The position numbers were made by a program, and so were the translations under genes. Below the pieces are notes generated by a model. It was not told where the DNA came from, searched no databases, and was given only the letters and a program-made list of their open reading frames with translations. Below, in pieces: positions 1 through 25,248 of a stretch of 25,248 bases of DNA. The number at the start of each line of letters is the position of its first letter. Position 1 is the stretch's first letter. Source of the stretch: a virus. The stretch covers positions 1 to 25,248 of the IMG/VR virus record IMGVR_UViG_3300002835_001005. One strand, 5' to 3'.

Positions 1-779
1 TGAATGGCGGATCTGGATATACTGGAACGGCTCCAGTAGTAACATTACGAGGAAGCGATGCCGTCGGAACCACAACATATACTCAAACGTTGACAGCTAC
101 AGTTGTAGGCGGAGTTATTACTGGAGTTATACACAGCCTCACTTTAGCTAACTGGCCAAAAGGATTGCAGGTTGCATCTGTAGAAGTTACTCATGCTACA
201 GGCACTGGCGCAATTGTTGTTCCGGTCATTGCACCACGTTTAGGATATGGTCATATCCCAGCTGCTGTTATGCCATCTTGGTATGCTGGTGTATCTGTTG
301 ATTTGCCTGATGGTATCAGCTCAGATAACTTTTATACTCCATATCGTCAAGTTTCGATTGTTCGCAATCCGAACACAACGGCTACAACTGCAAATGCATT
401 GCGATCACTTACTTTACCAACTGGTCATAGTGTTCCTTCTATTACTGACGCTAATGCTTTGATAACTGATGCCAGTGGAGTACCATTTGCAGTTGCTGAT
501 GCAGTTGTTGGAAATACTTTATATTTCCACCAAAATTACACTTCAGGCTTTAAAGAACTAGCTGCAAGCACTACTTTCCGTTTATCAACCACAGGATCTA
601 CCAATTATACATACACCGCGGTTAATGCTTCAGAATGTACATCAAACTTTAATGGCATTACTGGTGGAGATGGTATATTTGCACGTACCGTTGGAGAAGT
701 TGTATTTGTTGAGAATCGCAAAAAAATTACACGTAGTGCTGGTCAAACTGAAAAAATCAAAATAATCATTCAATTCTAA
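1..779 (+). CDS. Baseplate wedge protein, T4 gp8-like (5' partial)
   Basis: The reading frame is open to the left edge of the window, so only the C-terminal ~258 residues are present and the true start lies upstream; an in-frame TTG at position 90 is not a credible start. The segment carries a run like the T4 gp8 family: a glycine-rich GYGHIP stretch, then PSWYAGVSVDLP, then a YRQVSIVRNP stretch, the pattern seen where gp8 proteins have a DFRQVGLI-like strand. In T4, gp8 is a dimeric wedge component joining gp10, gp7 and gp6. The stop overlaps the next start (TAATG), so the two are probably translationally coupled. The family call rests on motif recall, not alignment; the alternative is another baseplate protein of similar fold. 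Confidence 0.7.
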   Translation, partial: NGGSGYTGTAPVVTLRGSDAVGTTTYTQTLTATVVGGVITGVIHSLTLANWPKGLQVASVEVTHATGTGAIVVPVIAPRLGYGHIPAAVMPSWYAGVSVDLPDGISSDNFYTPYRQVSIVRNPNTTATTANALRSLTLPTGHSVPSITDANALITDASGVPFAVADAVVGNTLYFHQNYTSGFKELAASTTFRLSTTGSTNYTYTAVNASECTSNFNGITGGDGIFARTVGEVVFVENRKKITRSAGQTEKIKIIIQF

Positions 780-3700
780 TGCCAATTACAACAGACAACA
801 ATATATACCGCGATGATTTTACGGCTTCGAATGTAGATGCAAAAAATTATTTGCGTATCTTGTTTAAAGCAGGATACAGTGTTCAGGTTCGTGAATTGAA
901 TCAGATGCAGAGCATACTGCAAAACCAAATCAATAAATTTGGTCTGAGCGTATGGAAGGATGGAGCTGCAGTTATTGGTGGCAGTTGTACATATGACCAA
1001 ACCATTCAATACATTGATGCTACGGTTACTGGTACTAATGTATCAACCGCAATCCTTGCATCAACTAACATACTCCCTTTTAATGGATTAGCTGCAAGTA
1101 TATTGGGTGTAAAAAGTTTAGGCGTAAGCGGTGCATACCGCATATTCTTAAGATACAATAATAGCGCAACCGGTGGTGTAGTTGCAGCATACTCTATCAG
1201 CAATGCTTTAAGCACAAACAATGCATTGAATGTTGCTGTGACAGCAACCGGTTATGCAGCTGGCATATTTCTTTCAAAAGGAGTATTCTTCACAAAAGGA
1301 AGTTTTGTTGCAACTGATGCACAAAGTGTTTTCTTTACGCTAGATACTAAAGATGCTAGTGTAAACGGTAAAGCTTACCTTTACGTAGCTGAAACATTTG
1401 TTGACTATACAACTGATGCATCATTAACAGACAATGCAAATGGTACTCCCAATTATAATGCTCCTGGCGCTGATCGTTATGCTGTAGATTTGACATTAAC
1501 CTTTGAAGCGGACGGGAGTGCAGCCAACACATCAGATAAAATTTCTCTGTTGACAGTTGTTAATAGCGTACCTGCGGTAGCAATGCGCGATCGTTATAGC
1601 GATCTAGACCGTCAACTTGCACAACGCACATATGAAGAAAGCGGAAGTTATACACTCAATCCGTTTAGGGCTCACATTCGCGAATTGTATAACAATGGCA
1701 GCAACTATGGCCGTTATGTTAGCTCTGAATTGGATAAAGCTGGTTATAGTATTAGTGCAGGCGACTTGCCAGCTAGCATAGCTGACGCACAAACGCGCTA
1801 CAGCTTGGGTATTGATCCGTCGGTTGCCTATGTGTATGGCTACCGCGTTGCACCACTCGACAAGAACGAATTGAATGCTCCCAAGGCACGCACACTTTCA
1901 CCATTGACACCAGCCAATACATATGCGAATATTGGAAACTATGTGATTGGATCTTTTGAGTCTGGTTCATACTTGCCCATCATCACAGAGATCAGTAGTA
2001 CATACAGAGTTGGACTAACTAAAACATATGATGGATCACTCACAAGCACTGTCACGTCAATTTCGCTACCCAACACAACTGGCATAACAGTTGGTATGAC
2101 TATGTATGGATCAACTTCTGGTCCGATGACAACCGGAGTTGTAATTACATCAGTTGGTGCAAATACTATTGGATTTACATCAACGGCTATTACAATTACT
2201 AACAATGAAGTATTAAATTTTGTAGCCGGAACAACCAAAATTAAAGCCGTTGAAGTTGAAGGCGCATCAACATATCGCTTGTATCTTTATGACACCATCA
2301 TAACTGCAACTGGAGGATTTAATTTGACTGATATTACACGAGTATGGAATACTGGTAGCACAGCTGTTAAATTTACGGTTGCAACTGGAGGAGCACTCGC
2401 CTTTGCTAGCAATGATACTGCAGTATTCAAATTGCCGTTTGATGCAGTAAGTAGGCTGACTAATATCCAATACAACATCCTGCATACTAGCAGCCCGGTA
2501 CCAAGCCCCAATACTAGTGTTACCCAAATTACAGTGGATTGCAGTGGTGGTCGTGTATTTTCGGATACTAGCCCAGGCGGTATAATCTTTTTTGTTAATG
2601 GAGTTAGAAAAACAGATTTTACTACAAGCGAGCAGCCTGGACAAGTTTTAACATTAAGTTGGACTAGCGGGGCGTTGACCGGAGCAAACTATACTGTTAT
2701 TGCACCTGTTACTGTTGGTATTCTTTCTGAGGGTGGCGCAGGCACAATAACAAAGACACTCACAGCAGATAATCAAACAATGACTGCAACTAACGCGCAA
2801 ACGGTATTTACTCTTTCTAAAGCAGAAGTATTTGCATTAACAAAAATAACTATTGGCACTGCCCCCGTATTTGTCCCACCTCTTACTGACTGGGTTATCA
2901 GTGATGATGGGCAACGTGATAATTACTTTACAAACGTTAAGGTTAAATATATTGGTAAGAAAAACTTAGACGGACTAAGTATAAAATTCGAGTATACCTA
3001 TTTCCTGCGGTCGTCATATACCACCGTGTGTGCTGCGGTCAACAGCTATTTACCAAATTCAACAAATCAAACACTAGGGTTAACATATTCAACCATACCA
3101 TCATACAAAGGAGTACGCCTTGCTGATTGTATTGATTTCCGCCCCGTGATACTTACAGGTAGCACTGGTGTTGTAGATGTATTAAATCCTTATAGTAGCA
3201 TAAGTGCGGCTGCTCAATTTTATTTGCCTAGAATTGACAAAGTGTGTGTCGATTATAATGGAAACTTTGAAATTACACAAGGGAATGCGGAATTGAATCC
3301 GCGTGTTCCTGAGACACCGCCCAAGTCGATGGCTCTATATACATTAGCGGTTCCAGCATATACACACAATGCTACTGATATTGTTTCAACATATATTGAT
3401 AACCGCCGCTATACTATGCGAGACATTGGCGGATTGGAAAGCCGCATTAAGAATATCGAATACTACACTACACTATCATTGCTTGAAAAATCAGCAAATG
3501 ATAAGCCAATTTTTGATAGCACTGGCAGCCGCTTTAAGAATGGTATATTGGTAGATTCATTCTACAATAACAATACTGCAAACATTGGCAGTGAAGCTTA
3601 CGCGGCCTCAATTGACATTACAAAAGGTATACTATACCCACAGTATTCTTCTCGTCGCTTTGACTTCAAAAAAGTTGACAACACACTATCTTCAATTAAG

Positions 3701-6088
3701 ATTAACAGCAATACTGCTACTTTAGCATATTCCGAAACTCCACTAATCTCTCAATCATATGCTACTGAATATGAAAGTGTAAATCCATATGATCTTGCAT
3801 CCTTTGTTGGTAATGTTACACTAACACCCGGTTCCGACGAATGGAAGGAAGTAACAAATACTACGGTGTATGCCGCGCTCAATACTGCAAATTATGATAC
3901 AGTAAAAGATACTGCAGTGTTGGGTACAATATGGAATGAATGGACTACAAATTGGACCGGTTCTACAGTCACACGGAGTGCTCCGCATGTGGTAAGTGCT
4001 CCTGACGGTGTGATGCGTCAAGCTGTTATAACTACTGAAACAGGTAGACAATCAAGAGTTGGATTGCAAACACAATTAAACTTTACCGATATTACACAAA
4101 ATAATGGTGAACGAGTAGTTGATGTTACTTTTATTCCATTTATTCGTTCGCGTAAAGTTTATTTTAGCGCAACTGGGCTTAAGCCAAATACAAAGGTATA
4201 TCCATTCTTTGACGGCATTGATATAAGTGCATACTCAATGCAATTGGATAGCATCGTTGATTATAAAAATAGTGCTGAAGTAAAAACTTATAACGGTATC
4301 AGTCCAGCCAATACAGCGCTTTCAACAATTGGTATTGTCACTTCAGCGCTGATAACAAATGTTGCTGGTGAAATTAAAGGAGTGTTTCTTATTCCCAACA
4401 ATGAAGTTTATAAGTTTAGGACTGGTTCACGCTCATTCCGTTTAGCTGATAGTTCGCGTAACCTACCTAGCGAAATCACGACATATGCAGATTCAAATTA
4501 TGCTGCAAATGGATTAACTCAAACGAACGAAACACTAATAACAAGTACTCGTATTCCTCAATTATCTCAAACAAGAGTTGACCAATCGGGAGCTGTTAGT
4601 AGAGTTACTAAAGTACAGTATGTAGATCCACTTGCGCAAAGTTTCATGATTGGTGACATTGAAACTGGTGCTTTTGTTACAAGCCTTGACCTGTATTTCC
4701 AAAGCACCAGCGCTACTTTGCCAGTCACCGTTGAAATTGTCACAGTTGAAAATGGTACGCCTACACAAAAAGTAGTACCATTCTCACAGGTATCGCTCAA
4801 TCCTTATACAATTGACGGAAGCGGCGCATATACAACTACACGGGTTGTTCAAATCAGTCAAAATGGTAGCGCAGCTACACGATTCACGTTTAGCGATCCT
4901 GTGTATCTAAAAGCTGGAGCTGAATATGCAATTGTTGTAAAATCAAATGATCCTGCATACCGCATATATGTTGCGCGCGTCGGTGGAACTGACCTTGCTA
5001 CATCTCAAAAGATTACAAAGAATGTATATGCTGGTGTTATGTTTATGAGTCAAAATGCTAGTACATGGACTCCAGATCAAACACGAGACTTTAAGTTTGT
5101 GCTTAATCGCGCAGCGTTTGTTGGTTCAGGTTCACTGCAATTTAAACCGACATTCTCTACTGGTGTTGAAAGTGTAACAATTAGCGCGGGTGGTAGCGGC
5201 TTTACTCAAGCGGGAGCAAGCATGACTTTTGCTGCACCGTCAACTGTAAAACCGGGTGATATAGCTGCAACAGGTGTGCCAACAGTTGATATATTAACAG
5301 GATCAATTGTCAGCGTAAGAGTGACCAACGCTGGCAACGGTTATGCATATAATGAAAGTCCGACGCTAACATTTGCTAACACAGGTACAACACCCGTGGC
5401 TCCAACGGCAACAGCTAACCTACTGAATGTTCCAGTTACTACATTCAATTTAGCTCAAGAGAATATAACTGTTGAAGGCACTGGTATAACCAACACACTT
5501 CGCCTTGATAATTTAACGCCAATCATAATTAGTCCTAATGAAAATTACGACTTAAAAACTGCTTTTTCGGTGGATCTTTCAACTGCACCAAACACAAGTA
5601 TGACAACGGTGCTGTCAACTAGAAGTGATTATGTAAGTCCAGTGATTGATTTGGACCGTGTATCATTGCTTACTGTTAAGAATGAAATCAATGCATTGGC
5701 TGACAACGATACAACCGAAACGACAGCCGACAAAGGAGCTGCAACTTCTCGTTACGTAACAAAAACAGTAAATCTTAACAATCCAGCTGATCAGTTAAAT
5801 ATTTACATCAATGCAAATCGCCCAACCGCAGCTGCAAAAATTACACTATATGCAAAATTAGCATATGATGGCGCAAGTGCAACTCCGACAAGCTGGGTTA
5901 AGATATCACCAGTGAATGCAATTCCTGTGTCGAGCAACTCTGAAGAATACGCTGAAGCAGAATATACACTGTCAAGTCCAGCAAATGATTTTATTAGCTT
6001 TACCATTAAAATTGTGTTTTCATCGGACAACCTGTATGATGTTCCATCTATACGCGATTTCCGCGCTATTGCTACAACTGGTGTATGA
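779..6088 (+). CDS. Large DUF4815-type virion structural protein (baseplate/tail fibre)
   Basis: A protein of 1769 residues. Its N-terminus (NIYRDDFTASNVDAKNYLRI, then VQVRELNQMQSILQNQI) is the hallmark start of DUF4815 proteins of marine T4-like phages. A later segment around residues 1280-1345 (DPLAQSFMIGDIETGAFVTS, followed by a VTVEIVTVENGTP stretch) is also typical of these large virion proteins. Between lie many beta-rich, Thr/Ser/Asn-rich stretches, including an inserted Ig-like segment at about residues 420-480 (TTGITVGMTMYG). Position after a gp8-like gene suggests a baseplate-attached or proximal-fibre role, perhaps replacing T4 gp10. The start overlaps the upstream stop by one base (TAATG); the stop overlaps the next start (ATGA). 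There is no Shine-Dalgarno, in line with coupled translation. The exact location in the virion is inferred. Confidence 0.8.
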   Translation: MPITTDNNIYRDDFTASNVDAKNYLRILFKAGYSVQVRELNQMQSILQNQINKFGLSVWKDGAAVIGGSCTYDQTIQYIDATVTGTNVSTAILASTNILPFNGLAASILGVKSLGVSGAYRIFLRYNNSATGGVVAAYSISNALSTNNALNVAVTATGYAAGIFLSKGVFFTKGSFVATDAQSVFFTLDTKDASVNGKAYLYVAETFVDYTTDASLTDNANGTPNYNAPGADRYAVDLTLTFEADGSAANTSDKISLLTVVNSVPAVAMRDRYSDLDRQLAQRTYEESGSYTLNPFRAHIRELYNNGSNYGRYVSSELDKAGYSISAGDLPASIADAQTRYSLGIDPSVAYVYGYRVAPLDKNELNAPKARTLSPLTPANTYANIGNYVIGSFESGSYLPIITEISSTYRVGLTKTYDGSLTSTVTSISLPNTTGITVGMTMYGSTSGPMTTGVVITSVGANTIGFTSTAITITNNEVLNFVAGTTKIKAVEVEGASTYRLYLYDTIITATGGFNLTDITRVWNTGSTAVKFTVATGGALAFASNDTAVFKLPFDAVSRLTNIQYNILHTSSPVPSPNTSVTQITVDCSGGRVFSDTSPGGIIFFVNGVRKTDFTTSEQPGQVLTLSWTSGALTGANYTVIAPVTVGILSEGGAGTITKTLTADNQTMTATNAQTVFTLSKAEVFALTKITIGTAPVFVPPLTDWVISDDGQRDNYFTNVKVKYIGKKNLDGLSIKFEYTYFLRSSYTTVCAAVNSYLPNSTNQTLGLTYSTIPSYKGVRLADCIDFRPVILTGSTGVVDVLNPYSSISAAAQFYLPRIDKVCVDYNGNFEITQGNAELNPRVPETPPKSMALYTLAVPAYTHNATDIVSTYIDNRRYTMRDIGGLESRIKNIEYYTTLSLLEKSANDKPIFDSTGSRFKNGILVDSFYNNNTANIGSEAYAASIDITKGILYPQYSSRRFDFKKVDNTLSSIKINSNTATLAYSETPLISQSYATEYESVNPYDLASFVGNVTLTPGSDEWKEVTNTTVYAALNTANYDTVKDTAVLGTIWNEWTTNWTGSTVTRSAPHVVSAPDGVMRQAVITTETGRQSRVGLQTQLNFTDITQNNGERVVDVTFIPFIRSRKVYFSATGLKPNTKVYPFFDGIDISAYSMQLDSIVDYKNSAEVKTYNGISPANTALSTIGIVTSALITNVAGEIKGVFLIPNNEVYKFRTGSRSFRLADSSRNLPSEITTYADSNYAANGLTQTNETLITSTRIPQLSQTRVDQSGAVSRVTKVQYVDPLAQSFMIGDIETGAFVTSLDLYFQSTSATLPVTVEIVTVENGTPTQKVVPFSQVSLNPYTIDGSGAYTTTRVVQISQNGSAATRFTFSDPVYLKAGAEYAIVVKSNDPAYRIYVARVGGTDLATSQKITKNVYAGVMFMSQNASTWTPDQTRDFKFVLNRAAFVGSGSLQFKPTFSTGVESVTISAGGSGFTQAGASMTFAAPSTVKPGDIAATGVPTVDILTGSIVSVRVTNAGNGYAYNESPTLTFANTGTTPVAPTATANLLNVPVTTFNLAQENITVEGTGITNTLRLDNLTPIIISPNENYDLKTAFSVDLSTAPNTSMTTVLSTRSDYVSPVIDLDRVSLLTVKNEINALADNDTTETTADKGAATSRYVTKTVNLNNPADQLNIYINANRPTAAAKITLYAKLAYDGASATPTSWVKISPVNAIPVSSNSEEYAEAEYTLSSPANDFISFTIKIVFSSDNLYDVPSIRDFRAIATTGV

Positions 6089-6317: not shown

Positions 6318-7685
6318 ATGGAATCTTCTGAATACAATCTATTTTCAAGCATCTCAACCAACGGTGTTACTGTTGCCGATACATTCAACACGTGGCGCAA
6401 AAGCACAAATGGTATTATTCAAAAACTTACCGTTGAAGCTGGCAGTCCTACATGGGATACCTCTGGAAAATTAGTCATTGGTAGTATTGTAGCTGACACT
6501 GGTAGTGCTATAGTTGATGTAGGAGTAGCAAGCACTGGAAGCCGTGCCGCAATCTTAAATCTAGGGAGTGCTTCAAATGTTAATAGCGTTGTAATTAATC
6601 GTGCTAGCGGAACAAACGGAAGCTTTAGCGTTACAAATAATGGAACGGGATTGTTTAGCTTAAGCCAAGACGGTGCGGGTGCTATAAGCATATTGACAAG
6701 TGCAACCGAAAGAGTGCGAATATTGTCTGGCGGAAATGTTGGCATAGGCACCGCTACACCTGATTCATTGCTACATGTAAATGGTGGTAATTTTAAAGTT
6801 AGCGGAACAATCACAAGCGGAGCAATTAGTAGCAGCGGCACCATTGGTGGAACTAATATCACTGCATCAGGATTTCTTAATGCCGCTACACTTGGAATAG
6901 GAAACAGCAACACGGCATTTACTGTTAGTGCTCTTGGTGCTATTGTAGGAACGGCACTAAATGCTGGTGCTGGAGCAATTTCTACAACAGGTGCATTAAA
7001 TGCTGGCACACTTAATGTTGGCACAGTACCGCAATTTACTGTTAGTGCTCTTGGTGCTATTGTAGGAACGGCACTAAATGCTGGTGCTGGAGCAATTGTT
7101 ACAACCGGTGCAATATCAGGTGGTGGTTTAAAATCTACAAAAAATTCACAAACTGGATATGGTGATGCAGCTTTAATTAGTGAAAGTGCAAGCGGAGATG
7201 CTGGCATAACATTGCATTGTTTCGGAGCAAATGCGGTGTATCTCAAATGCGCACGAGACGCTATAAGCGGTTATGCAGCTGGCAGTTTACATATAATAAC
7301 TCATGTTGGAACCACATCGTATGCTAATATTATAGTTAATCAACTTGATGCAAAAGGCGACATCGTTGCTTATAGTACATCCGACCGCAAGTATAAAGAC
7401 AACATAGTAAACATTACAAATCCATTGGACAAAGTGTCTCGTATAAATGGTGTGTCCTTTGACTGGAATAACCAACAGTCTGCATTCTCTGGTCATGACA
7501 TTGGTGTAATTGCTCAAGAAGTTGAAGCTGTATTGCCTGAGATTGTAGCTACGCGCGAAGATGGAAGTAAGGCTGTTAAGTATGATAGGATTGTAGCACT
7601 TCTCATTGAATGCGTTAAAGAACTTAAGGTTAGCAACGAGCAGTTGCATGCTGAAGTAGACGCATTAAAACTTCTTGTTAAATGA
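6318..7685 (+). CDS. Tail fibre with C-terminal S74 intramolecular chaperone
   Basis: A protein of 455 residues. The C-terminal ~101 residues are a Peptidase_S74 domain: it opens at Ser355 in TSDRKYKDNI, then shows GVSFDW, IGVIAQEVEAVLPEIV, VKYDRIVALLIE and a final coiled coil. In this family the domain trimerises the fibre and then cleaves itself off before the conserved Ser using a Ser/Lys pair; Ser355 and the nearby lysines (K358, K360) are present. The middle is Gly/Ala/Ser/Thr-rich fibre sequence, with a GNVGIGTATPDSLLHV segment typical of such fibres (about residues 138-153) and a duplicated block at about 200-260. The start at 6318 has no Shine-Dalgarno but sits six bases after a GATAAATA box. 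It probably forms a distal fibre or receptor-binding trimer. Confidence 0.88.
   Translation: MESSEYNLFSSISTNGVTVADTFNTWRKSTNGIIQKLTVEAGSPTWDTSGKLVIGSIVADTGSAIVDVGVASTGSRAAILNLGSASNVNSVVINRASGTNGSFSVTNNGTGLFSLSQDGAGAISILTSATERVRILSGGNVGIGTATPDSLLHVNGGNFKVSGTITSGAISSSGTIGGTNITASGFLNAATLGIGNSNTAFTVSALGAIVGTALNAGAGAISTTGALNAGTLNVGTVPQFTVSALGAIVGTALNAGAGAIVTTGAISGGGLKSTKNSQTGYGDAALISESASGDAGITLHCFGANAVYLKCARDAISGYAAGSLHIITHVGTTSYANIIVNQLDAKGDIVAYSTSDRKYKDNIVNITNPLDKVSRINGVSFDWNNQQSAFSGHDIGVIAQEVEAVLPEIVATREDGSKAVKYDRIVALLIECVKELKVSNEQLHAEVDALKLLVK
6917..6980 (+). repeat. Direct repeat copy 1 (64 bp, perfect) inside the S74 fibre
   Basis: This 64-base block recurs without mismatch at 7034-7097, an in-frame offset of 117 bases (39 codons). 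It encodes FTVSALGAIVGTALNAGAGA. It is a recent tandem duplication of a fibre shaft segment that lengthens the shaft by 39 residues. Confidence 0.95.
7034..7097 (+). repeat. Direct repeat copy 2 (64 bp, perfect) inside the S74 fibre
   Basis: Second copy of the block at 6917-6980, identical over 64 bases and in the same frame. The flanks differ: TLGIGNSNTA before copy 1 and NVGTVPQ before copy 2. Homologous recombination between the copies would shorten the fibre by exactly 39 residues. Confidence 0.95.
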
Positions 7686-7697
7686 TACCTTTAATAT

Positions 7698-8252
7698 ATG
7701 TCAAAACTTCAATCATCGGGTTTAATATCTTTAGGCAACCTTGCCGACGAATATATAGTATCAAAATCTAATGTCAGCTTCAATGCATTTCATAAAGTAG
7801 CTCCTGGTACAAGCTTAGGACCAGTAAATGGTGTAGTTAAAAGTATAGCAAATAATGCTGCTGTTCCTGCAAGTGGGCAAATACGGTTAAGTAATTTTTA
7901 TGGGTCTGGCTGGTATTACAAAAGAGTTTATTTTCTGTTAACATCCGCAACGGTATTAAGTTCAACCGCTGGTACATATAACAGTAACGGTACAATTAGA
8001 GTTTATGTTGATGGCTCAAGTTCTAATTATACCGTAAGCGTAACAGGCCGAGCTGGTCAAACATTATCTCAAAACGGATTTGACGGCTCAGTATACGCAC
8101 AATTTGATGGATTGGCTGGAGATGTGGCATATACAATAACCGTAACAGATAATCTTTTCGGGACAACTTATACCTTTACCGCAAACATTTCAAAAGGCGG
8201 CACTAGCACCGTAACTGGCTATGCCACAACAACATGGCATAATGTCGGATAA
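7698..8252 (+). CDS. Small beta-rich tail/fibre-associated protein
   Basis: A 184-residue protein. The first ~70 residues follow a pattern common in T4-like phage virion proteins: SSGLISLGNLADEY near the start and SGQIRLSNFYGSG near residue 65, matching the recurring phage motif G-x-I-S-x-S-x-I ... P-I-S-x-S-x-F-Y-G. The rest (residues ~75-184) is predicted all-beta: YKRVYFLLTSATVLSSTAG, then IRVYVDGSSSNYTVSVTG and a YTITVTDNLFG strand, resembling one or two Ig-like or fibronectin-like repeats. No signal peptide or membrane segment is seen. Lying between an S74 fibre and the cargo block, it is probably a minor tail or fibre-tip protein; no specific function can be given. Confidence 0.7.
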   Translation: MSKLQSSGLISLGNLADEYIVSKSNVSFNAFHKVAPGTSLGPVNGVVKSIANNAAVPASGQIRLSNFYGSGWYYKRVYFLLTSATVLSSTAGTYNSNGTIRVYVDGSSSNYTVSVTGRAGQTLSQNGFDGSVYAQFDGLAGDVAYTITVTDNLFGTTYTFTANISKGGTSTVTGYATTTWHNVG

Positions 8253-8264
8253 ATTAAAAAGAGT

Positions 8265-8981
8265 ATGAATACACCATTTTTAGAAATTTTCAAAAAAGAT
8301 ATATGTAATGGGCCTGTGTGTATTACTTATAAAGAACGAGAAGATGTTGTATATACTAAGTTTTTTTACAAAGTAGAAGATGTAGATTTTTATGATACAA
8401 CTAATGATGTTTTTCATCTTGTTTCACATATAGATAATAAAACAAAAACCATTAAAGGTTGTGATATTATCAAGTTTGAATCGCTAAAAGAAGATGACAC
8501 TTTTGATGTTAAAAAATATTTCTTAGATAAAGCAGAAAAAATAAAAGCAGATTATAAAGAAATATTAAATTTTGATTATTCCGATTCATTTAATAATTTT
8601 AATGATTACTTTTTTAATGAAAACGTAAGTTTAAATGATCTTAAGATGGTGTGTATGCTTGGCTTACCATCATTTGATAGTCTTGAAAGTGGCGGTGAAG
8701 ATACCTTGATTAGAATAAAAGAAGTATGGAAAGCTCAAATTGAATTGCATAAAGTTGAAATTTTAAAATATCTTAAAAGTGAAATTGATTTGCCTGATTC
8801 TTCATATGATGCAGATACAGTTAAAGAAATTATGAATTTGATCACAGAATTTAATCCTTCATCAACATTAAATTCTATAAAGTCCAAAGAAGAATTGTTT
8901 GAATATTGGCCTAGTATACTATTACCTGCGCCAGATTTTATAAATGAAATACATACATTATATGCAACACGCAACATATAA
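8265..8981 (+). CDS. Unrecognised AT-rich protein at the head of the cargo block
   Basis: A 238-residue acidic and lysine-rich protein, not recognised. It is predicted to start with a beta region (residues ~1-80, e.g. VYTKFFYKVEDVDFYDTTND) and continue as alpha-helical (residues ~85-238, e.g. KKYFLDKAEKIKADYKEIL). There is no signal peptide, membrane segment, nucleotide-binding loop or metal motif. It marks the boundary where base composition drops from the virion genes into AT-rich cargo. A weak purine-rich stretch (AAAAAGAG) precedes the ATG. Its position just after the fibre genes would fit a fibre assembly factor, and its position at the head of the sugar block would fit an accessory of that block. 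Neither can be shown. Confidence 0.6.
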   Translation: MNTPFLEIFKKDICNGPVCITYKEREDVVYTKFFYKVEDVDFYDTTNDVFHLVSHIDNKTKTIKGCDIIKFESLKEDDTFDVKKYFLDKAEKIKADYKEILNFDYSDSFNNFNDYFFNENVSLNDLKMVCMLGLPSFDSLESGGEDTLIRIKEVWKAQIELHKVEILKYLKSEIDLPDSSYDADTVKEIMNLITEFNPSSTLNSIKSKEELFEYWPSILLPAPDFINEIHTLYATRNI

Positions 8982-9007
8982 TGAAAATCTCATTTATTAA
9001 TTTTCAT
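8981..9007 (+). other. 8-bp inverted repeat embedding the GT29-like start codon
   Basis: ATGAAAAT at 8981-8988 and ATTTTCAT at 9000-9007 are perfectly complementary around an 11-base spacer. The 3' arm contains the first two bases of the ATG at 9006, so a folded mRNA would mask that start. No U-tract follows, so it is not a classical terminator. An AT-only 8-bp stem is weak and could arise by chance. Confidence 0.4.
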
Positions 9008-9713
9008 GTTAAAAAAAATATGTATCATAGGTAATGGTGTAGGTTCTATTAGAAAAGAAAACGGAAAATTTGTTGATTCATGCGATGAAGTAGTAAGAAT
9101 CAAAAATTTTGAAACACGAGGATTTGAAAAATATATTGGAAGTAAAACAACAATATATTCAAGTAAATGGTTTGCATGGTTTGATCGTAAGATTCGCAAT
9201 AAGCCATTAAAATTTACTTTTTTAGATGAAGTTCATACATTAATGTTTATGTTTCCAAATGAATTCATTAAAGAAGATCCTAATAATAACTTTAATGCAT
9301 ACACTCTTTTATACAAACAGCTTCAGCTTAAAAATGAATTGCCTCCAATACCCAATAAAAATTGGAAAGGTCATATTGAATGTTTAAATATGTTTGGTGT
9401 TGAAAAAAAGAAAGCTATACACTTTTCTTTAAATGATGTTGAACAATTATGCATAAACATATTAAAAATACATAATAAAAACTATGTTCGATCTTTAAAA
9501 AAAATTATAGAGCCAACGTGCGGGATACGCACTGTTTTTAAAATTTTACAAATCTATCCAGATGCAGAAATATTTTTAACAGGATTTGATTGTTTTCAAA
9601 GCGGCTGGTATTGGGATCAAAGTCATAAAATCAAAGCTGTTCATTATTATTTAGACGAATTGCTTTATTTTGGCCAACTCAAAAAAATGGAAAATGTTAC
9701 TTTTTTAGATTAA
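9006..9713 (+). CDS. GT29 (sialyltransferase)-like glycosyltransferase, first copy
   Basis: A 235-residue protein. Residues 5-50 resemble the sialyl motif L of family GT29: CIIGNG near residue 6, VDSCDEVVRIKNF at 23-35, and GFEKYIGSKTTI at 39-50. Residues 170-195 resemble motif S: PTCGIRT followed by a helix and then FLTGFD. His213 and Glu218 in AVHYYLDELLYF fit the HxxxxE end motif carrying the GT29 catalytic base. It should transfer a sugar, possibly a nonulosonic acid, from a CMP-activated donor, but the donor cannot be told from sequence. There is no signal peptide, so it is cytoplasmic. Its stop overlaps the next start (TAATG), linking it to a GT-B-like transferase. The alternative is a GT42-like or uncharacterised bacterial relative. 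The fold call is fairly secure; the chemistry is inferred. Confidence 0.72.
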   Translation: MLKKICIIGNGVGSIRKENGKFVDSCDEVVRIKNFETRGFEKYIGSKTTIYSSKWFAWFDRKIRNKPLKFTFLDEVHTLMFMFPNEFIKEDPNNNFNAYTLLYKQLQLKNELPPIPNKNWKGHIECLNMFGVEKKKAIHFSLNDVEQLCINILKIHNKNYVRSLKKIIEPTCGIRTVFKILQIYPDAEIFLTGFDCFQSGWYWDQSHKIKAVHYYLDELLYFGQLKKMENVTFLD

Positions 9714-10663
9714 TGCTAAGTACTATTTTAAACAAAAGCATTGCATTTTTGTGTGATGAATCTCTACCAAATTATTTAGATAACCCTCAAAGATATGACT
9801 ACTTAAAAGGTAAGCATAGCGCAACCGGTTACTATTATTGGATATTAAAAAATTTTGGTTTTCATAATGTATCGTTAGTATCAGCTGATGATTGTTTAGA
9901 TCATTATGATGCTGTGGTATTTCATTATGATAATCATGATTGCATAGACATCAACAAAAAGTATAAGACGCTTCAAATCGTTACCGACCGCCCACAATTA
10001 CCAGGAGTTGACTTGTATGCAGCATGCAATTTGTCTTCATTCAAACCCATTCTGAATCTAGACATAATAAAAAGCACTGGAATTGGTCTTAAACATGTTT
10101 TGTGTGGTCCGCTAACATACATACATTATCCAATGGCATTAAATTACACCAAATGTAAAGCAAGTTGGCCACCCAAAGTTTTTCATTATACTGGAAGAAA
10201 GACCACACTTATAGATGAAATATACAGTGATTCCTTTGTAGATCACATGAAAAACAAAGGAGTGAATTTGCGATTTGATTTTGAAAATGATCATAACTCT
10301 GGAGATGAAGATGTTTATTTTTGTGTGCGCAAGAGAACTACTTATTTTTCATTGAAAAGCAAAGGTAATAATGTAGATACAAAATTAGGTCAAAAGACAG
10401 CTAACCGATTGTATCAAGCATGGAAAATGGGTACGCCTCTCATTATAAATGGGAATAGCGCAATGGGTTCTATATACAAAAACGAAAACGACTTCCTATT
10501 AGCTGATAATGTAGAACAGTTTGAATATCAATGTTTAAGATTATTGCATCATAAAGAGTTGTTTGATGCTATGATTGCTAATGGAAATATAAGAAAAGAC
10601 GAACATACAAACAGTCAAATTGTAAAACAATTCATTGAAGCTTTTCAAATACTTTTTAAATGA
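9713..10663 (+). CDS. GT-B-fold glycosyltransferase-like protein
   Basis: A 316-residue protein. The C-terminal third reads like the donor-binding half of a GT-B enzyme: KTANRLYQAWKMGTPLII at 228-245, a small loop with a serine (NGNSAMGS, 246-253), ENDFLLADNVEQFE at 258-271, then a helix LLHHKELFDAMIANGN. This is the usual order in GT1/GT4-type proteins, in which a selected sugar nucleotide is held by the loop after a GTP(L/V)I strand. The first half has alternating strands and helices with a possible acceptor pocket (LVSADDCLDHYDAVVFHYD). It lacks an obvious E-x7-E motif, so the exact family is open. It overlaps the GT29-like gene by one base. There is no membrane segment. Probably a cytoplasmic sugar transferase of the cargo pathway. 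Confidence 0.62.
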   Translation: MLSTILNKSIAFLCDESLPNYLDNPQRYDYLKGKHSATGYYYWILKNFGFHNVSLVSADDCLDHYDAVVFHYDNHDCIDINKKYKTLQIVTDRPQLPGVDLYAACNLSSFKPILNLDIIKSTGIGLKHVLCGPLTYIHYPMALNYTKCKASWPPKVFHYTGRKTTLIDEIYSDSFVDHMKNKGVNLRFDFENDHNSGDEDVYFCVRKRTTYFSLKSKGNNVDTKLGQKTANRLYQAWKMGTPLIINGNSAMGSIYKNENDFLLADNVEQFEYQCLRLLHHKELFDAMIANGNIRKDEHTNSQIVKQFIEAFQILFK

Positions 10664-10683
10664 AACGGAATATATAATATAAT

Positions 10684-11571
10684 ATGAATGGTGAGTATCA
10701 CATCAATAAAAGAAATGAGCGATATTATGTTAACAGCTTAAAGGATAGTTTTTTATATAAACTGCAAGGATTAACCACAATTGAGTTGAGCGTCACTGAG
10801 TTGTGTACACGCAAATGTTCATTTTGCCCTCGCGGTGATTCTACGGTTTACCCAAATCAAAAGCTATTCATGAGCTCGGAAACCATTACAAACATTGCAA
10901 ATAAATGTTTAGCTGAAGGCTTTGAAGGCGATTTTCATATCTCAGGTTTTGGTGAATCATTCACGCATCCAAAGTTTCTTGAATTGACTTCTACACTAAG
11001 AGACACATTACCAAACAATCATTTGGTATTGACAACCAATGGTGACTTTTTAAATGATAAAACAATCAATGAAATAATCAAAAGAAACTTTAACAAGGTT
11101 ATTGTTAGTTGTTACGACGGCGCTGAAAGAAAAAAACATTTTACATTGTTGTTTGAAAAGAATGGTTTTCATAATTATGATATAAGAGAATTGTGGTTTA
11201 ACCCAGAGGAAACTACTGAAGATCTTATGAATCGCAATAACTTTAACAATCGCTCAGGTTCAGTAAATGTTGATTCTCAAAAAGAAAATCTTAACATCAA
11301 TTCTCCATGTTACTTGCCTTTTTACAAAGTTATTATTGATTGGAATGGAAATGCTTTATTGTGTTGTAATGATTGGAAAAAAGCTCATAAAGGATTGGGT
11401 AATATCAATACTCATTCGTTAAGTGATATTTGGTATGGTGAAGAATTGGTTAAGGTCCGTGCACAATTAGCAAACGGCAAACGTGTTGGGCCGGCGTGCG
11501 CAAACTGTAATATCAAAGGAACCTTAATTGGGAAAGAAAGCGTAAATTTACTATCGGATAAAGAGTTATGA
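10684..11571 (+). CDS. Radical SAM/SPASM-domain protein
   Basis: A 295-residue protein. C41, C45 and C48 in ELCTRKCSFCPR form the CxxxCxxC motif that binds the radical-SAM [4Fe-4S] cluster. GFGES at 88-92 matches the GGE-type SAM-binding strand, and VLTTNG at 115-120 is the usual next strand. The C-terminal part is a SPASM-like cluster domain: C209, C227/C228 in the stretch IIDWNGNALLCCND, then DIWYGEELVKVR and C272/C275 in GPACANC. Such enzymes use SAM to make a 5'-deoxyadenosyl radical for hard chemistry on peptides or sugars. No peptide precursor gene is visible nearby. It overlaps the next gene by ATGA, suggesting a shared pathway. The substrate is unknown; a modified sugar is a guess from the neighbouring transferases. 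Confidence 0.85.
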   Translation: MNGEYHINKRNERYYVNSLKDSFLYKLQGLTTIELSVTELCTRKCSFCPRGDSTVYPNQKLFMSSETITNIANKCLAEGFEGDFHISGFGESFTHPKFLELTSTLRDTLPNNHLVLTTNGDFLNDKTINEIIKRNFNKVIVSCYDGAERKKHFTLLFEKNGFHNYDIRELWFNPEETTEDLMNRNNFNNRSGSVNVDSQKENLNINSPCYLPFYKVIIDWNGNALLCCNDWKKAHKGLGNINTHSLSDIWYGEELVKVRAQLANGKRVGPACANCNIKGTLIGKESVNLLSDKEL

Positions 11572-12263
11572 TAAACGCCCATGAATATAAATGTTTTGTT
11601 GTTCAACCAAATAGGTATTTTAAATCTCTTAAGGAACAAATTAATAATGATACTTTCTATGTACATGGAGGAGGTTGGAAATTAAAAGATGAATCTCAAT
11701 ACAATTCTTCAAATAATTTATGGCGGCTTCCTCCGTTTACATATAAACTTATTAAAAAAAATCAAACAATAATTGGGGTTTTTCCTCCAGACAGATTTGA
11801 TTATCTTAAAAATGTTAAAAAATATACAATAATTGAAAATCCCGTAGACCGGGTTTATCAATGTTTTTGGTATATGCAGCATCAAATTGGAAGTAAAAAA
11901 CTCAATAAATGCGATAAAATATATGAAGAATATAATGGTGATTTAGATTCATTTATTGATATGTATATTAAAAATCCAGATAATGTAACTCTCACCGCCC
12001 ATTGTAAAAATGTCATATATGAAACACAGTATGACGCATTAAATCAATTTAAGGATTTGTCTCAATTCCAATTTGTTGGTACTGTTGAAAAGTTAAAAAA
12101 ATCAATTGACATAGTCAATGCTGGTTTTAATTTAAACTTAATATATGATGAAAAAATGAAAGCAAAAAAATTGGATTGTTTTAATCATCGGCGAGATGAA
12201 TTGGAAAAAGTATTATCACATCAATTAGAATCTTACCATTTTTATAACGATAACATTGATTAA
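11568..12263 (+). CDS. Sulfotransferase-like protein with altered PAPS-site residues
   Basis: A 231-residue protein. YTIIENPVDRVYQCFWYM at about 86-103 resembles the central RNPxDR-(V/L)xSxY helix of carbohydrate sulfotransferases (PF03567-like). FQFVGTVEKLKKSIDIVNAG at about 167-186 resembles the family's FVGxxE-(K/L)xxDxxxIxxxLG stretch. Two key elements look changed: the first Arg of the RNP motif is Glu90, and the N-terminal phosphosulfate loop (KxGS/T-type) is replaced by VVQPNRYFKSLKEQ. So the fold is likely, while PAPS-dependent sulfation is uncertain. It overlaps the radical SAM gene by ATGA and precedes the amidotransferase-like gene by eight bases. It is very AT-rich. The alternative is a sulfotransferase-fold protein with a new ligand. 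Confidence 0.55.
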   Translation: MINAHEYKCFVVQPNRYFKSLKEQINNDTFYVHGGGWKLKDESQYNSSNNLWRLPPFTYKLIKKNQTIIGVFPPDRFDYLKNVKKYTIIENPVDRVYQCFWYMQHQIGSKKLNKCDKIYEEYNGDLDSFIDMYIKNPDNVTLTAHCKNVIYETQYDALNQFKDLSQFQFVGTVEKLKKSIDIVNAGFNLNLIYDEKMKAKKLDCFNHRRDELEKVLSHQLESYHFYNDNID

Positions 12264-12271
12264 ATCATAAT

Positions 12272-13561
12272 ATGTCTAGTTTTATATTTACTGATAAAGA
12301 TTTAAATGTAGAAAATTTAAATTTTTTCTCCGCCAAAAGAGGACCGGATATTACAAATATATGTACGGTAAATGGATTTAATATGATACATAATTTATTG
12401 GATGTATCAAAAAAATGTATAACTCAACCAATAAATCATAATAATATAACTGTTTTATTTGATGGTCAAATTTATAGTCCTACTTCGGACGATCAGACAT
12501 CACTGGTAATATCTTTATATGAAAAGTATGGAAAGACTTTCGTTGAAAATATAAACGGCGAATATGCAATAATGCTTATGGATAAAACCAATGAAGTTAT
12601 TTATCTATATAGCGATATTTTTTCAACTAAACCGTTATTTTATAGTATAGAAAATGGAAATGTTGGAATTGCCACGTATGCGTCTGAATTAAAACTTTTG
12701 GGTTTTGCTAATCCAATTAGAGTAAAAGATTCTTCTTTTATAGAATTAAAGTTAAATGACTTATCAATAAAAGAATATAGCCATAGCAAATTTAACTTAA
12801 AAGAATATAAAACTACATACGATGATTGTATCGCTGCTTTAGAAAATGCTATAAAAATACGATGCAATGAAAAATGTGCAATACCATTAAGTTCAGGTCA
12901 TGATAGTGGAGCAATTTTTCAATGGTTTTTGTTAAATAATAAAAAAGAAAACTGTTTTTATTACGTCAAAAACAATAGAGAAAATGAAATTGTAATGGAC
13001 GACAGACTTAAAAAGTGTGAAGACCAAAACATGTCGTATAAAATTATTGACTATTACAAAAATAAAAGTGTTAATGATTTGATAGAATTTAAAAACATTT
13101 CAAACAATATGGAAGATTTTGAAAATTATAAACATGATGTTGTAGTTTTTATGCTTTCTAAATTGGTATCTGTTATTAAAAAAGATGGGTATGATGTTAT
13201 TATTTCAGGAAGTGGTGCTGATGCAATAATGTCAAATGATAAAAAAGATGGCGTGTATTTTTATAATTTACAAAAACCATTTCATTTTTATTCTTACATT
13301 ACTCAGCATTTTTGCAATGAATTTGAATATATAGTTGGTGCATATGGAGTGCAATTAAGATATCCATTTTTAGATAAAATTTTTGTTCAGGAATTTTTAA
13401 ATTTATCTCCTGAGCTAAAAACTCAAAAATATAAATCAGTTATAACGGAATATTTACATATTAATAACTTGATTACTAACAGTAAAAAAGTAGGAATGAG
13501 TTGTTCGCATAACGTTTATACTGAAATAGAACAAAATTTTATTTTACCGCAACATGAATAG
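12272..13561 (+). CDS. Asparagine-synthase-like protein lacking the glutaminase cysteine
   Basis: A 429-residue protein with the two-domain layout of AsnB-type enzymes. The N-terminal part keeps landmarks of the class II glutamine amidotransferase fold: RGPD at 23-26, QP at 52-53, VLFDGQIYS at 61-69, NGEYAIMLMD at 95-104 and SDIFSTKPLFY at 114-124. It begins MSSFIF and has no Cys2 and only a short region before RGPD, so glutamine hydrolysis is not expected. The synthase part has a PP-loop LSSGHDSGAIF (206-216), GSGADAI (313-319, where AsnB has GxGADE) and YGVQLRYPFLDK (358-369). It may make an amide with free ammonia or another amine, or adenylate a carboxyl group, for example on a sugar acid. 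Very AT-rich. It overlaps the next gene by eight bases. The substrate is unknown. Confidence 0.72.
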   Translation: MSSFIFTDKDLNVENLNFFSAKRGPDITNICTVNGFNMIHNLLDVSKKCITQPINHNNITVLFDGQIYSPTSDDQTSLVISLYEKYGKTFVENINGEYAIMLMDKTNEVIYLYSDIFSTKPLFYSIENGNVGIATYASELKLLGFANPIRVKDSSFIELKLNDLSIKEYSHSKFNLKEYKTTYDDCIAALENAIKIRCNEKCAIPLSSGHDSGAIFQWFLLNNKKENCFYYVKNNRENEIVMDDRLKKCEDQNMSYKIIDYYKNKSVNDLIEFKNISNNMEDFENYKHDVVVFMLSKLVSVIKKDGYDVIISGSGADAIMSNDKKDGVYFYNLQKPFHFYSYITQHFCNEFEYIVGAYGVQLRYPFLDKIFVQEFLNLSPELKTQKYKSVITEYLHINNLITNSKKVGMSCSHNVYTEIEQNFILPQHE

Positions 13562-14105
13562 CCGCATATGTATTGTTGCAAAAGGCAGTTCACTGTTATC
13601 TCATAAAATAGGTTCTCTTATAGATTCACATGACATTATTATAAGAGTTAATCATTTACCAAATGACAACAACCATGATGTCATTGGACTTAAGACGCAT
13701 ATCTTTTCAACACAGTCTCCTGATAAATTATCTAATCATATTGACGAGTTAAAAAACTTAGACATTTGGATATCTTCAGATGATGCTGAATGCTATGAAC
13801 AGTTTAATTTAATTTTAAAAATGATAAATGAAAATGAAATGTCTTACATTAAAAAGTATTTTGGTAATGTTGCAAATTTAAACAATTCATATATGCCAGA
13901 TGCTGGAATCAGTTCTATATTGTTAGCGTTATTGAGATATCCTTCTCATAAGATAAATGTATGTGGATTTGACTTGTATGAAAATGGTAATATAAGTATT
14001 GATAATGTTAAAAAAGATTCTAGTAATTTTACAACTCCAGTTTTTCAACAAGTTCTTTATTATAAAACTTTAATTAAATCTGGTACTATTACCCAATTAT
14101 ATTAA
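13554..14105 (+). CDS. Second, divergent GT29-like protein with substituted catalytic residues
   Basis: A 183-residue protein. It follows the same plan as the protein at 9006-9713: CIVAKGSSLL at 6-15, IDSHDIIIRVNH at 23-34, DVIGLKTHIFSTQ at 42-54, PDAGISSILLAL at 115-126, INVCGFDLYENG at 134-145, and a terminal helix QQVLYYKTLIKSG. It is about 50 residues shorter, missing much of the central segment. Aligned by eye on the terminal helix, the His213/Glu218 positions of the first copy fall at Thr160 or Thr161 and Gln165 or Gln166 here, so catalysis by the usual GT29 base is doubtful. It could be a partner subunit, a lectin-like binder or an enzyme with altered chemistry. Its start lies inside the end of the asparagine-synthase-like gene. 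Confidence 0.65.
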   Translation: MNSRICIVAKGSSLLSHKIGSLIDSHDIIIRVNHLPNDNNHDVIGLKTHIFSTQSPDKLSNHIDELKNLDIWISSDDAECYEQFNLILKMINENEMSYIKKYFGNVANLNNSYMPDAGISSILLALLRYPSHKINVCGFDLYENGNISIDNVKKDSSNFTTPVFQQVLYYKTLIKSGTITQLY

Positions 14106-14108
14106 AAT

Positions 14109-14786
14109 ATGAACATACACATCGGATATGACGACTCACAGGACATTGCATATCAAGTATGCAAACATTCCATCATTAAGAATAGCAGTTCTAATGCTAT
14201 CGCCATAAGTAAAATTAACTCTGATACTATAGTTGGCTATGACCGCCCATGCGATCCGCTTGCATCAACTCCTTTCACATATGCACGCTTTTATGTGCCA
14301 TTCATAAATGATTACAAAGGATGGAGTATATTTTGTGACAGCGACTTTTTATTCCTAGAAGATATTCAAAAGCTAATAGATCAATGCGATCCTCAATATG
14401 CAGTGCAAGTTGTAAAGCATGACTATACTCCATGCAATGCTGTAAAGATGAATGATAAACCTCAAAGTGTTTATCCTAGGAAAAATTGGAGTAGCTTGAT
14501 CTTATGGAACAATACTCACCCTAAAAATAAAATTCTTGATGGTGATTTGCTAAACTCTGCGAGTGCTAGTTTCTTACATCGATTCCAATGGTTAGACGAC
14601 TCTGACATTGGTGAAATTTCATATGAGTGGAATTGGCTAGTCGGCTGGTATACCGAAACATCTGAAAAGAAACCAAAGGCATTACATTTTACTGAAGGCG
14701 GCCCTTGGCTTGGTATAAAATCTGACCTTAAGTATGATGCAGAATGGTGTGCCTATTCTGCATCATTGCAAGACACTTTAAAATAA
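14109..14786 (+). CDS. GT-A-fold glycosyltransferase, GT8-like
   Basis: A 225-residue protein. MNIHIGYDDSQDIAYQVCKH at the start is a typical first strand and helix for nucleotide-sugar binding. FTYARFYVPF at 56-65 precedes WSIFCDSDFLFLEDI at 72-86, in which D77-S-D79 is the DxD motif that holds the metal and nucleotide sugar. HFTEGGPWLG at 193-202 resembles the C-terminal HFxGxxKPW motif of GT8 enzymes. Similar small GT-A proteins occur in many myovirus genomes. The predicted reaction is sugar transfer from a UDP- or GDP-sugar to a protein or glycan. Its base composition is closer to the virion genes than to its AT-rich left neighbours, so it may have a separate origin. It lies three bases after the previous stop. 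Confidence 0.78.
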   Translation: MNIHIGYDDSQDIAYQVCKHSIIKNSSSNAIAISKINSDTIVGYDRPCDPLASTPFTYARFYVPFINDYKGWSIFCDSDFLFLEDIQKLIDQCDPQYAVQVVKHDYTPCNAVKMNDKPQSVYPRKNWSSLILWNNTHPKNKILDGDLLNSASASFLHRFQWLDDSDIGEISYEWNWLVGWYTETSEKKPKALHFTEGGPWLGIKSDLKYDAEWCAYSASLQDTLK

Positions 14787-14800
14787 GAATAGTCCTCTGT

Positions 14801-14808
14801 TATAAATA
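14801..14808 (+). promoter_or_regulatory. T4-type late promoter TATAAATA
   Basis: An exact TATAAATA in the gap after the GT8-like gene, ending six bases before the ATG at 14815. In T4-like phages this octamer is the -10 element read by the gp55/gp33 late sigma system. At the usual distance, transcription would begin at or next to the start codon. Confidence 0.75.
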
Positions 14809-14814
14809 CAGAAT

Positions 14815-15429
14815 ATGGCAATGTATGCAGACTTATATGCGGATCAAGGGTCAAATTTTTCTACAGTTGTTAATGTAGGAAGTGGTGATGCATTTGATGT
14901 AAATCTTACTGGTTATACTGCGCGTGGCAAGATTCGTAAATCTTACACCAGCAGTACGTCATATGATTTTGTTGTGGCTATACCACAACCAACAACTGGA
15001 CAACTGCAGCTGTCATTGGATTCTGCTACAACAGCGGCTATAAAACCCGGCCGTTACTTGTATGATGTAGAAATAACGCAAACATCAACTGGTAAAGTTA
15101 CAAGAGTGGTTGAAGGCCAAATTGATTTTAATGCTGGCGCCAGCAGCAATCTTTTCAATGCGCAAATATTTACAGTAACTGCGTCCTACGCTCTTAAAGT
15201 AACAGACAATACTGTGCTATGTAATTGTGTAAATAATGCTATAAGTATTACTCTTCCATCTGCAGCAGCAGCACCCAACAAAATTTTCATAATAAAGAAA
15301 ATTGATGCTACCGCAAATGTGGTAACAATAGTTGGTACTGTTGATGCCACCGTTAATCCAACAATACTTACGCAATGGCAAACAGTAAAAGTTCAAAGTA
15401 ATGGAGTTAATTGGTACAACATATCATAA
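14815..15429 (+). CDS. Small virion structural protein of the fibre module
   Basis: A 204-residue protein. MAMYADLYADQGSNFSTVVN and LTGYTARGKIRKSYTSS match a family of T4-like phage proteins with a DQG-S-x-F-S-x-x-V start and an LTGYTARGQ(M/I)RKSY stretch. Residues ~1-110 form one beta domain; residues ~115-204 form a second (VTDNTVLCNCVNNAISITLP, then IIKKIDATANVVTIVG and NGVNWYNIS), resembling the small beta-repeat at the end of many fibre proteins. Two in-frame ATGs exist, at 14815 and 14821. The first is preferred because it lies exactly six bases after TATAAATA, as at other genes here, and because the decayed copy at 19681 keeps the same ATGGCA. The stop overlaps the next start (TAATG). 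Confidence 0.75.
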   Translation: MAMYADLYADQGSNFSTVVNVGSGDAFDVNLTGYTARGKIRKSYTSSTSYDFVVAIPQPTTGQLQLSLDSATTAAIKPGRYLYDVEITQTSTGKVTRVVEGQIDFNAGASSNLFNAQIFTVTASYALKVTDNTVLCNCVNNAISITLPSAAAAPNKIFIIKKIDATANVVTIVGTVDATVNPTILTQWQTVKVQSNGVNWYNIS

Positions 15430-25203: not shown

Positions 25204-25248
25204 ATGTTAGGCATAGGAATCAACCTTTGGGGTAATATAAAAGACCCA
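25204..25248 (+). CDS. Start of another small protein (3' partial)
   Basis: An open frame of 15 codons beginning MLGIGINLWGNI and running off the window. It begins seven bases after the previous stop. A MLGIGL-type start is often seen in short phage virion proteins that follow genes like the one before it. There is too little sequence for a firm call. Confidence 0.45.
   Translation, partial: MLGIGINLWGNIKDP

Follow-up and report, generated by a model that had tools for sequence, protein, structure and literature searches.

A candidate glycan-remodelling cassette between the tail-fibre genes of an uncultured T4-like phage

What could a run of sugar-related and radical enzymes be doing between the tail-fibre genes of a T4-like phage? 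The question is raised by a T4-like phage record of 25,248 nt (analysed over its whole length and hereafter called the window), in which a cassette of eight genes at positions 8265-14786 sits between tail-fibre genes. Glycosyltransferases near the fibres of abundant aquatic phages usually receive a passing remark. In pelagimyophages, cassettes of glycosyltransferases and radical SAM enzymes have been described within a hypervariable host recognition cluster downstream of VrlC, the published view being a change of the host O-chain (PMC7029224).

The block, its flanks and its promoters

Upstream of the block the window encodes, in order, a baseplate protein, VrlC, a protein of 75 aa, a fibre of S74 type and a protein of 184 aa; downstream come an L-shaped fibre assembly protein and then more fibres and adhesin-like proteins. 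Virion genes (VrlC, S74-type fibre, L-shaped fibre assembly protein) thus flank the block, as the preliminary description of this DNA had it. The eight consecutive genes were likewise recovered as adjacent open reading frames, all on the + strand, with intergenic gaps of -8 to +24 nt. The features discussed below are the following:

779..6088, + strand: baseplate protein VrlC, the landmark on the upstream side of the host recognition cluster (phrog_358 2e-303; tblastn to HTVC008M VrlC)
6318..7685, + strand: fibre with a C-terminal S74-type chaperone region (many PHROG tail-fibre matches, best 1e-37)
7698..8252, + strand: small 184-aa protein, spacer between fibre and block (96% nucleotide identity to relative L001)
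8265..8981, + strand: gene A, N-terminal WYL/Sm-like barrel and C-terminal domain with a W..I..L..E and YWP.LLLPAPDF motif
9006..9713, + strand: gene B, GT29 sialyltransferase-like (PF00777 8e-8, 32.5 bits for a cut-off of 23)
9713..10663, + strand: gene C, GT-B transferase (PF13524 3e-7)
10684..11571, + strand: gene D, radical SAM enzyme of BtrN (Twitch) type (radical SAM and SPASM matches; profile A4 to BtrN 7e-30)
11568..12263, + strand: gene E, no family detected (profile, isolate-phage and model searches)
12272..13561, + strand: gene F, asparagine-synthase-like (TIGR01536 1e-24; GATase_7 and asparagine synthase matches)
13554..14105, + strand: gene G, GT29-like (PF00777 2e-8, 34.2 bits for a cut-off of 23)
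14109..14786, + strand: gene H, GT8-like transferase with DxD (CDSDF; phrog_28018 5e-50)
14801..14808, + strand: late promoter box of T4 type (TATAAATA), lying 14 nt upstream of the start codon of the first gene past the block
14815..15429, + strand: that first gene, L-shaped tail fibre assembly-like protein (phrog_3304 2e-25)
15411..16424, + strand: putative distal fibre J (60% nucleotide identity to L001, for 91% in the backbone)
16810..19161, + strand: repeat protein L of BspA/LRR look, putative adhesin (phrog_22899 6e-66; 65% nucleotide identity to L001)

The top bit score of the window VrlC among the isolate matches listed was with VrlC of Pelagibacter phage HTVC008M (32.7% identity), and a megablast of the window against isolate phages gave no match. 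The 184-aa protein had no Pfam or PHROG match, and the neck gene gp14, before which host recognition clusters end, was not recognised in the window record, which stops at 25248. A cyanophage origin was considered and not retained, the psbA/psbD family being absent from eight related records (possibly fragments). Protein L contains BspA-like units (SLTSVPLFNTASVTTM), shows a strong AT skew and varies among close relatives.

The block lies immediately downstream of VrlC among fibres, with a variable content that includes glycosyltransferases and radical SAM, and it belongs to the host recognition cluster type already published, in a distinct composition. It shares with the clusters of pelagimyophages and cyanomyophages their hypervariability, their place downstream of VrlC in aquatic T4-like phages, their fibres, and several glycosyltransferases (GT8 being common) together with radical SAM. 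By contrast, its eight genes sit in one compact run directly behind the first fibre, and its GT29 proteins, BtrN-type assignment, gene A and Cys-less asparagine-synthase-like protein go unmentioned in the consulted part of the cluster's description (PMC7029224).

The block was rightly described as AT-richer than its flanking virion genes: its G+C content is 29.2%, against 40.4% on each flank, and the early single-row counts (12/60 and 31/60) were exact. The same difference was observed in L001, L007, L009, L069 and L092. AT-richness as a general mark of such cassettes was rejected, the difference being small or absent in most other loci.

Five T4-type late promoter boxes occur on the + strand of the window and none on the - strand, for about 2.3 expected per strand, and other fibre-region genes are also preceded by one. 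No box was found inside the block or in the 8 kb upstream of it, and in L001 and L007, too, the block is followed by this late box. The simplest reading of this layout is that the block is probably co-transcribed with the upstream late fibre operon. The boxes stand at a near-fixed 13-16 nt before an ATG (window 14801, 24378 and 24911; L001 14421; L007 12867; L015 5175 and 23803; L069; L092), a spacing with which transcription would begin on the start codon or right beside it, so that late mRNAs are possibly leaderless.

Enzyme families of the block

The two GT29-like proteins first proposed both belong to the family by their PF00777 matches, but not with equal catalytic credentials. Gene B, whose profile (A2) matches sialyltransferase structures at 2e-9, keeps the L motif shared by GT29 sialyltransferases and plant GT29-like proteins, as well as the VS motif HxxxxE (as HYYLDE), whereas G carries TPVFQQ in place of the latter, without the catalytic His. 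Gene G is therefore best described as a GT29 relative, not necessarily active as a transferase. Compared with GT29 sialyltransferases, the window proteins are short and soluble; plant GT29-like members have been proposed to transfer Kdo-like sugars (PMC5811610). Five tandem GT29 genes were observed within one phage contig (L030, 9639-13126).

The GT-B assignment of gene C was confirmed, with relatives in four other phage lineages (27-99% identity). An LPS-operon home for its cellular relatives was not retained: the sole bacterial contig (L023) places the gene beside a 2OG oxygenase, with no clear LPS operon. Gene H is labelled GT8-like only, because its match to PF01501 (3e-4, 20.7 bits) falls below the cut-off of 24.3 even though the DxD is present; its homologue in Synechococcus phage S-SCSM2R is 48% identical. 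A search of 50,697 isolate phage records found no relatives of genes A, B and C, and cultured phages have thus not shown the cassette.

Gene D had been announced as a radical SAM/SPASM protein, of which the radical SAM part stands. Its closest solved structure is BtrN (7e-30), followed by NifB at 2e-6, a gap of 23 orders of magnitude in E-value, and the BtrN match extends over nearly the whole length, including the auxiliary cluster domain with its four Cys. BtrN oxidises the aminocyclitol alcohol 2-deoxy-scyllo-inosamine, with four Cys holding the auxiliary cluster (PMC9012708), and itself belongs to a bacterial antibiotic pathway, butirosin biosynthesis. As counted from the alignment, C209, C227, C272 and C275 of the window protein repeat the 18/45/3 spacing of BtrN (169, 187, 232 and 235), which indicates that the auxiliary domain is Twitch rather than full SPASM. 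Among 83 gene D homologues, all carry the CxxxCxxC radical SAM motif and an auxiliary spacing of 18/44-47/3, and 70 have an Arg at the position equivalent to BtrN Arg152, as counted from the same alignment. Two bacterial homologues, in two different genomes (L202, 4646-7336; L203, 7604-10368), lie within a three-gene set of GFO_IDH_MocA oxidoreductase, radical SAM and TauE permease.

For gene E, the suggestion of a sulfotransferase was abandoned: no Pfam match was obtained even at E<=10, PF00685 and PF03567 included, while a known phage sulfotransferase used as positive control matched PF03567 at 4e-12. No isolate-phage relative of E was found, and its single-sequence structure model (pLDDT 39) was unusable. 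The asparagine-synthase-like identity of gene F was upheld, its PP-loop S-G-x-D-S being intact (SSGHDS), with the exception of the glutaminase site, where Cys2 is replaced by Ser (MSSF in the window; homologues keep the Cys as MCSF in L009 and MCSI in L030). Because the catalytic Cys is replaced while the PP-loop is intact, and by analogy with the AsnB family, the donor is likely ammonia or an amine, rather than glutamine. No membrane-spanning stretch was predicted in any block protein, and all of the enzymes look cytosolic.

Such a set could also act elsewhere than on surface sugars. T4-like phages glycosylate DNA, and the transferases might do likewise; alternatively, the radical SAM and asparagine-synthase-like proteins might make a peptide natural product, since RiPP pathways include radical SAM/SPASM enzymes and lasso-type ligases, and a weak NF033535 match was obtained (3e-10). 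We consider either outcome very improbable: no DNA glucosyltransferase family was matched and no precursor-peptide candidate was seen, the block has a fibre location, and the nearest solved structure to D is BtrN and not a peptide maturase.

Recurrence, exchange and the junction gene

A profile scan with gene D alone retrieved 485 viral stretches, and many of the retained loci carry GT29 and H-type GT8 genes within ~10 kb of D. After collapsing at 70% D identity, GT29 was present in 11 of 28 radical SAM groups, H-type GT8 in 12 and both in 10, nearly all of them retrieved by radical SAM alone and the groups being not fully independent. As a control, 80 loci were fetched through VrlC and scored with improved profiles: among the 33 that came from other phages and had 5 kb or more of downstream sequence, none had GT29 or H-type GT8, and one had a D relative. 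Fisher tests between the groups, which are not fully independent, and these control loci gave 5e-5 for GT29 and 2e-5 for H-type GT8. This neighbourhood check bears out the conserved co-occurrence expected of a sugar-modifying cassette beside fibre genes; that the cassette may decorate fibres or block superinfection, as first suggested, would be compatible with it. The impression that no described phage system carries such a set must be narrowed, since VrlC-downstream cassettes with glycosyltransferases and radical SAM are published (PMC7029224); the recurring core of GT29, BtrN-like radical SAM and GT8 in uncultured viruses is new here. Our literature search returned nothing useful on GT29 with radical SAM in phages, or on glycosylated virions.

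Other sugar genes accompany the core. An SDR is a recurrent neighbour of D (36 loci), KdsA (DAHP_synth_1 8e-72) occurs within the same islands in four groups, and L069 carries a KdsB-type cytidylyltransferase (CTP_transf_3 2e-38) with an HAD phosphatase; these KdsA/KdsB-type neighbours would suit a GT29 using CMP-Kdo-like donors. A class I/II aminotransferase is present in L001, L005 and L007, which are relatives of the window, in L026 and L069, and in the cultured phages S-SCSM2R and CPt10. In L097 (6373-11900) and similar loci, a single run after a 2,099-aa protein comprises a KdsA-like protein with an extra C-terminal part, a cupin, GT29, BtrN-like radical SAM, SDR and H-type GT8. S-SCSM2R (PQ898602) has, besides its H homologue, a D homologue beside the aminotransferase, KdsA and KdsB, but its genes are scattered over distant islands and the two regions examined hold no GT29. 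Campylobacter phage CPt10 (FN667789) has a D homologue (27%), several radical SAM genes, and aminotransferase-like and amidinotransferase genes near baseplate genes, but no GT29 or GT8-like neighbours were detected in this island.

Comparison with close relatives reveals how the block changes. The contig L002/L003 is a near-identical sister of the window, and L001 a relative at ~91% nucleotide identity. Nucleotide identity of the window to L001 is 87-96% in the backbone, 75% in gene B, 97-98.5% in G and H, and 60-65% in the fibres further downstream, J and L; L001 lacks E and F and has an aminotransferase and another GT29 instead. The changing parts are the enzymes and the putative adhesins, and near-identical phages swap the cassette along with the distal fibres. 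One could see the cassette as hitch-hiking cargo, collected with other surface-polysaccharide genes by a hypervariable insertion hotspot and with little selected function in the phage, as the differing gene content of near-identical phages and the strong AT bias relative to the flanks (window, L001, L069, L092) would suggest. We regard this as rather improbable, given that frames are open, gaps short and catalytic motifs kept across lineages, and that the same three families are found jointly again and again.

Gene A had been counted within the sugar block; the seven-gene remainder is indeed contiguous, but A itself is fibre-linked, and neither Pfam nor fold searches matched it to a known enzyme family or to a recognisable sugar enzyme. 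In its model, a WYL/Sm-like barrel (residues 1-75) is followed by a helical C-terminal domain. By structure comparison, residues 1-78 matched WYL/Sm barrels (Z up to 9.1), the match list barely covering the C-terminal part; as modelled, this is a common small barrel, uninformative on function. The eight loci in which the C-terminal domain was detected (window, L001, L005, L007, L009, L020, L021 and L030) all have sugar or radical SAM genes within the next two genes after A, and in most a gene of the fibre region immediately precedes A; a search with a broader alignment added no further members. Because this domain is present in eight sugar-bearing loci and absent from the 33 control VrlC loci (phages other than the window's own), gene A marks the point at which fibre genes meet sugar genes. 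The L021 version of the domain matched Phage_tail_APC (PF16778) at 0.0022 (18.3 bits, cut-off 26.6) and the window gene A had no PF16778 match, which suggests a distant, weak likeness to phage tail assembly chaperone domains. In L021 (9809-20505), gene A precedes a run of radical SAM genes together with a GT2-like gene and proteins that look, by eye, like a tryptophan halogenase and sugar epimerases.

Host glycan or virion as the putative target

The junction gene brings the virion itself into consideration, with enzymes that would glycosylate fibre or baseplate proteins and a gene A that would couple fibre assembly to them, tuning receptor binding or virion stability. Several observations point this way: the block lies in line with fibre genes without a late promoter of its own, gene A of L030 has a late box 11 nt upstream, the enzymes look cytosolic, and the chaperone-like domain sits at the fibre/sugar junction. 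The chaperone match is, however, under the Pfam cut-off, and related sets lie away from fibres elsewhere (in L065-type loci, radical SAM and SDR are next to replication genes and GT29 is elsewhere). Virion glycosylation is accordingly a serious but less probable alternative. Its more specific form, in which A is an adaptor coupling tail-fibre assembly to a dedicated phage glycosylation that attaches the phages' own radical-modified sugar to their fibres, strikes us as unlikely.

We favour, at somewhat less than even chances, a late, exchangeable cassette that remodels a glycan, most likely on the host surface, and we infer its substrates, acceptor and purpose from the observed families, motifs, co-occurrence, mosaic exchange and promoter layout. 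In such a cassette, which would continue the late operon of the upstream fibre genes, D is predicted by analogy with BtrN to oxidise a hydroxyl of a sugar or cyclitol, the next step in relatives being presumably taken by a PLP aminotransferase or SDR. B would transfer a keto-sugar of the Kdo or sialic type, activated with CMP; further sugars would be added by C and H, and F would add an amide from ammonia or an amine, not from glutamine. The likeliest acceptor would be a host surface glycan (LPS core or O-chain), altered late in infection, and the altered glycan may keep progeny and competitors from adsorbing to the doomed cell or its debris. We propose that the cassette recombines with the distal adhesins because selection acts jointly on genes that bind the receptor and genes that change it.

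The company of BtrN-type D and a GFO_IDH_MocA dehydrogenase in bacteria counts for sugar remodelling, and the lack of membrane-spanning stretches, reminiscent of cytosolic LPS-core enzymes, for a host glycan; the lack of both membrane proteins and flippase or polymerase genes in the block suits the host-surface and virion readings alike. Against host-surface remodelling, late expression is poor timing for superinfection exclusion, the tail-chaperone-like gene A found only beside sugar blocks points to a link with the virion, and the aminotransferase of the relatives is of class I/II, not of the DegT type usual for sugars. Function within this radical SAM subfamily is moreover hard to predict from similarity (PMC6231123), which weighs against this explanation too.

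The defined core of GT29, BtrN-type radical SAM and GT8-like proteins, with its fibre-linked marker protein, constitutes a testable unit. Such a core should make one specific sugar, whose acceptor, virion or host, is open to direct enquiry.
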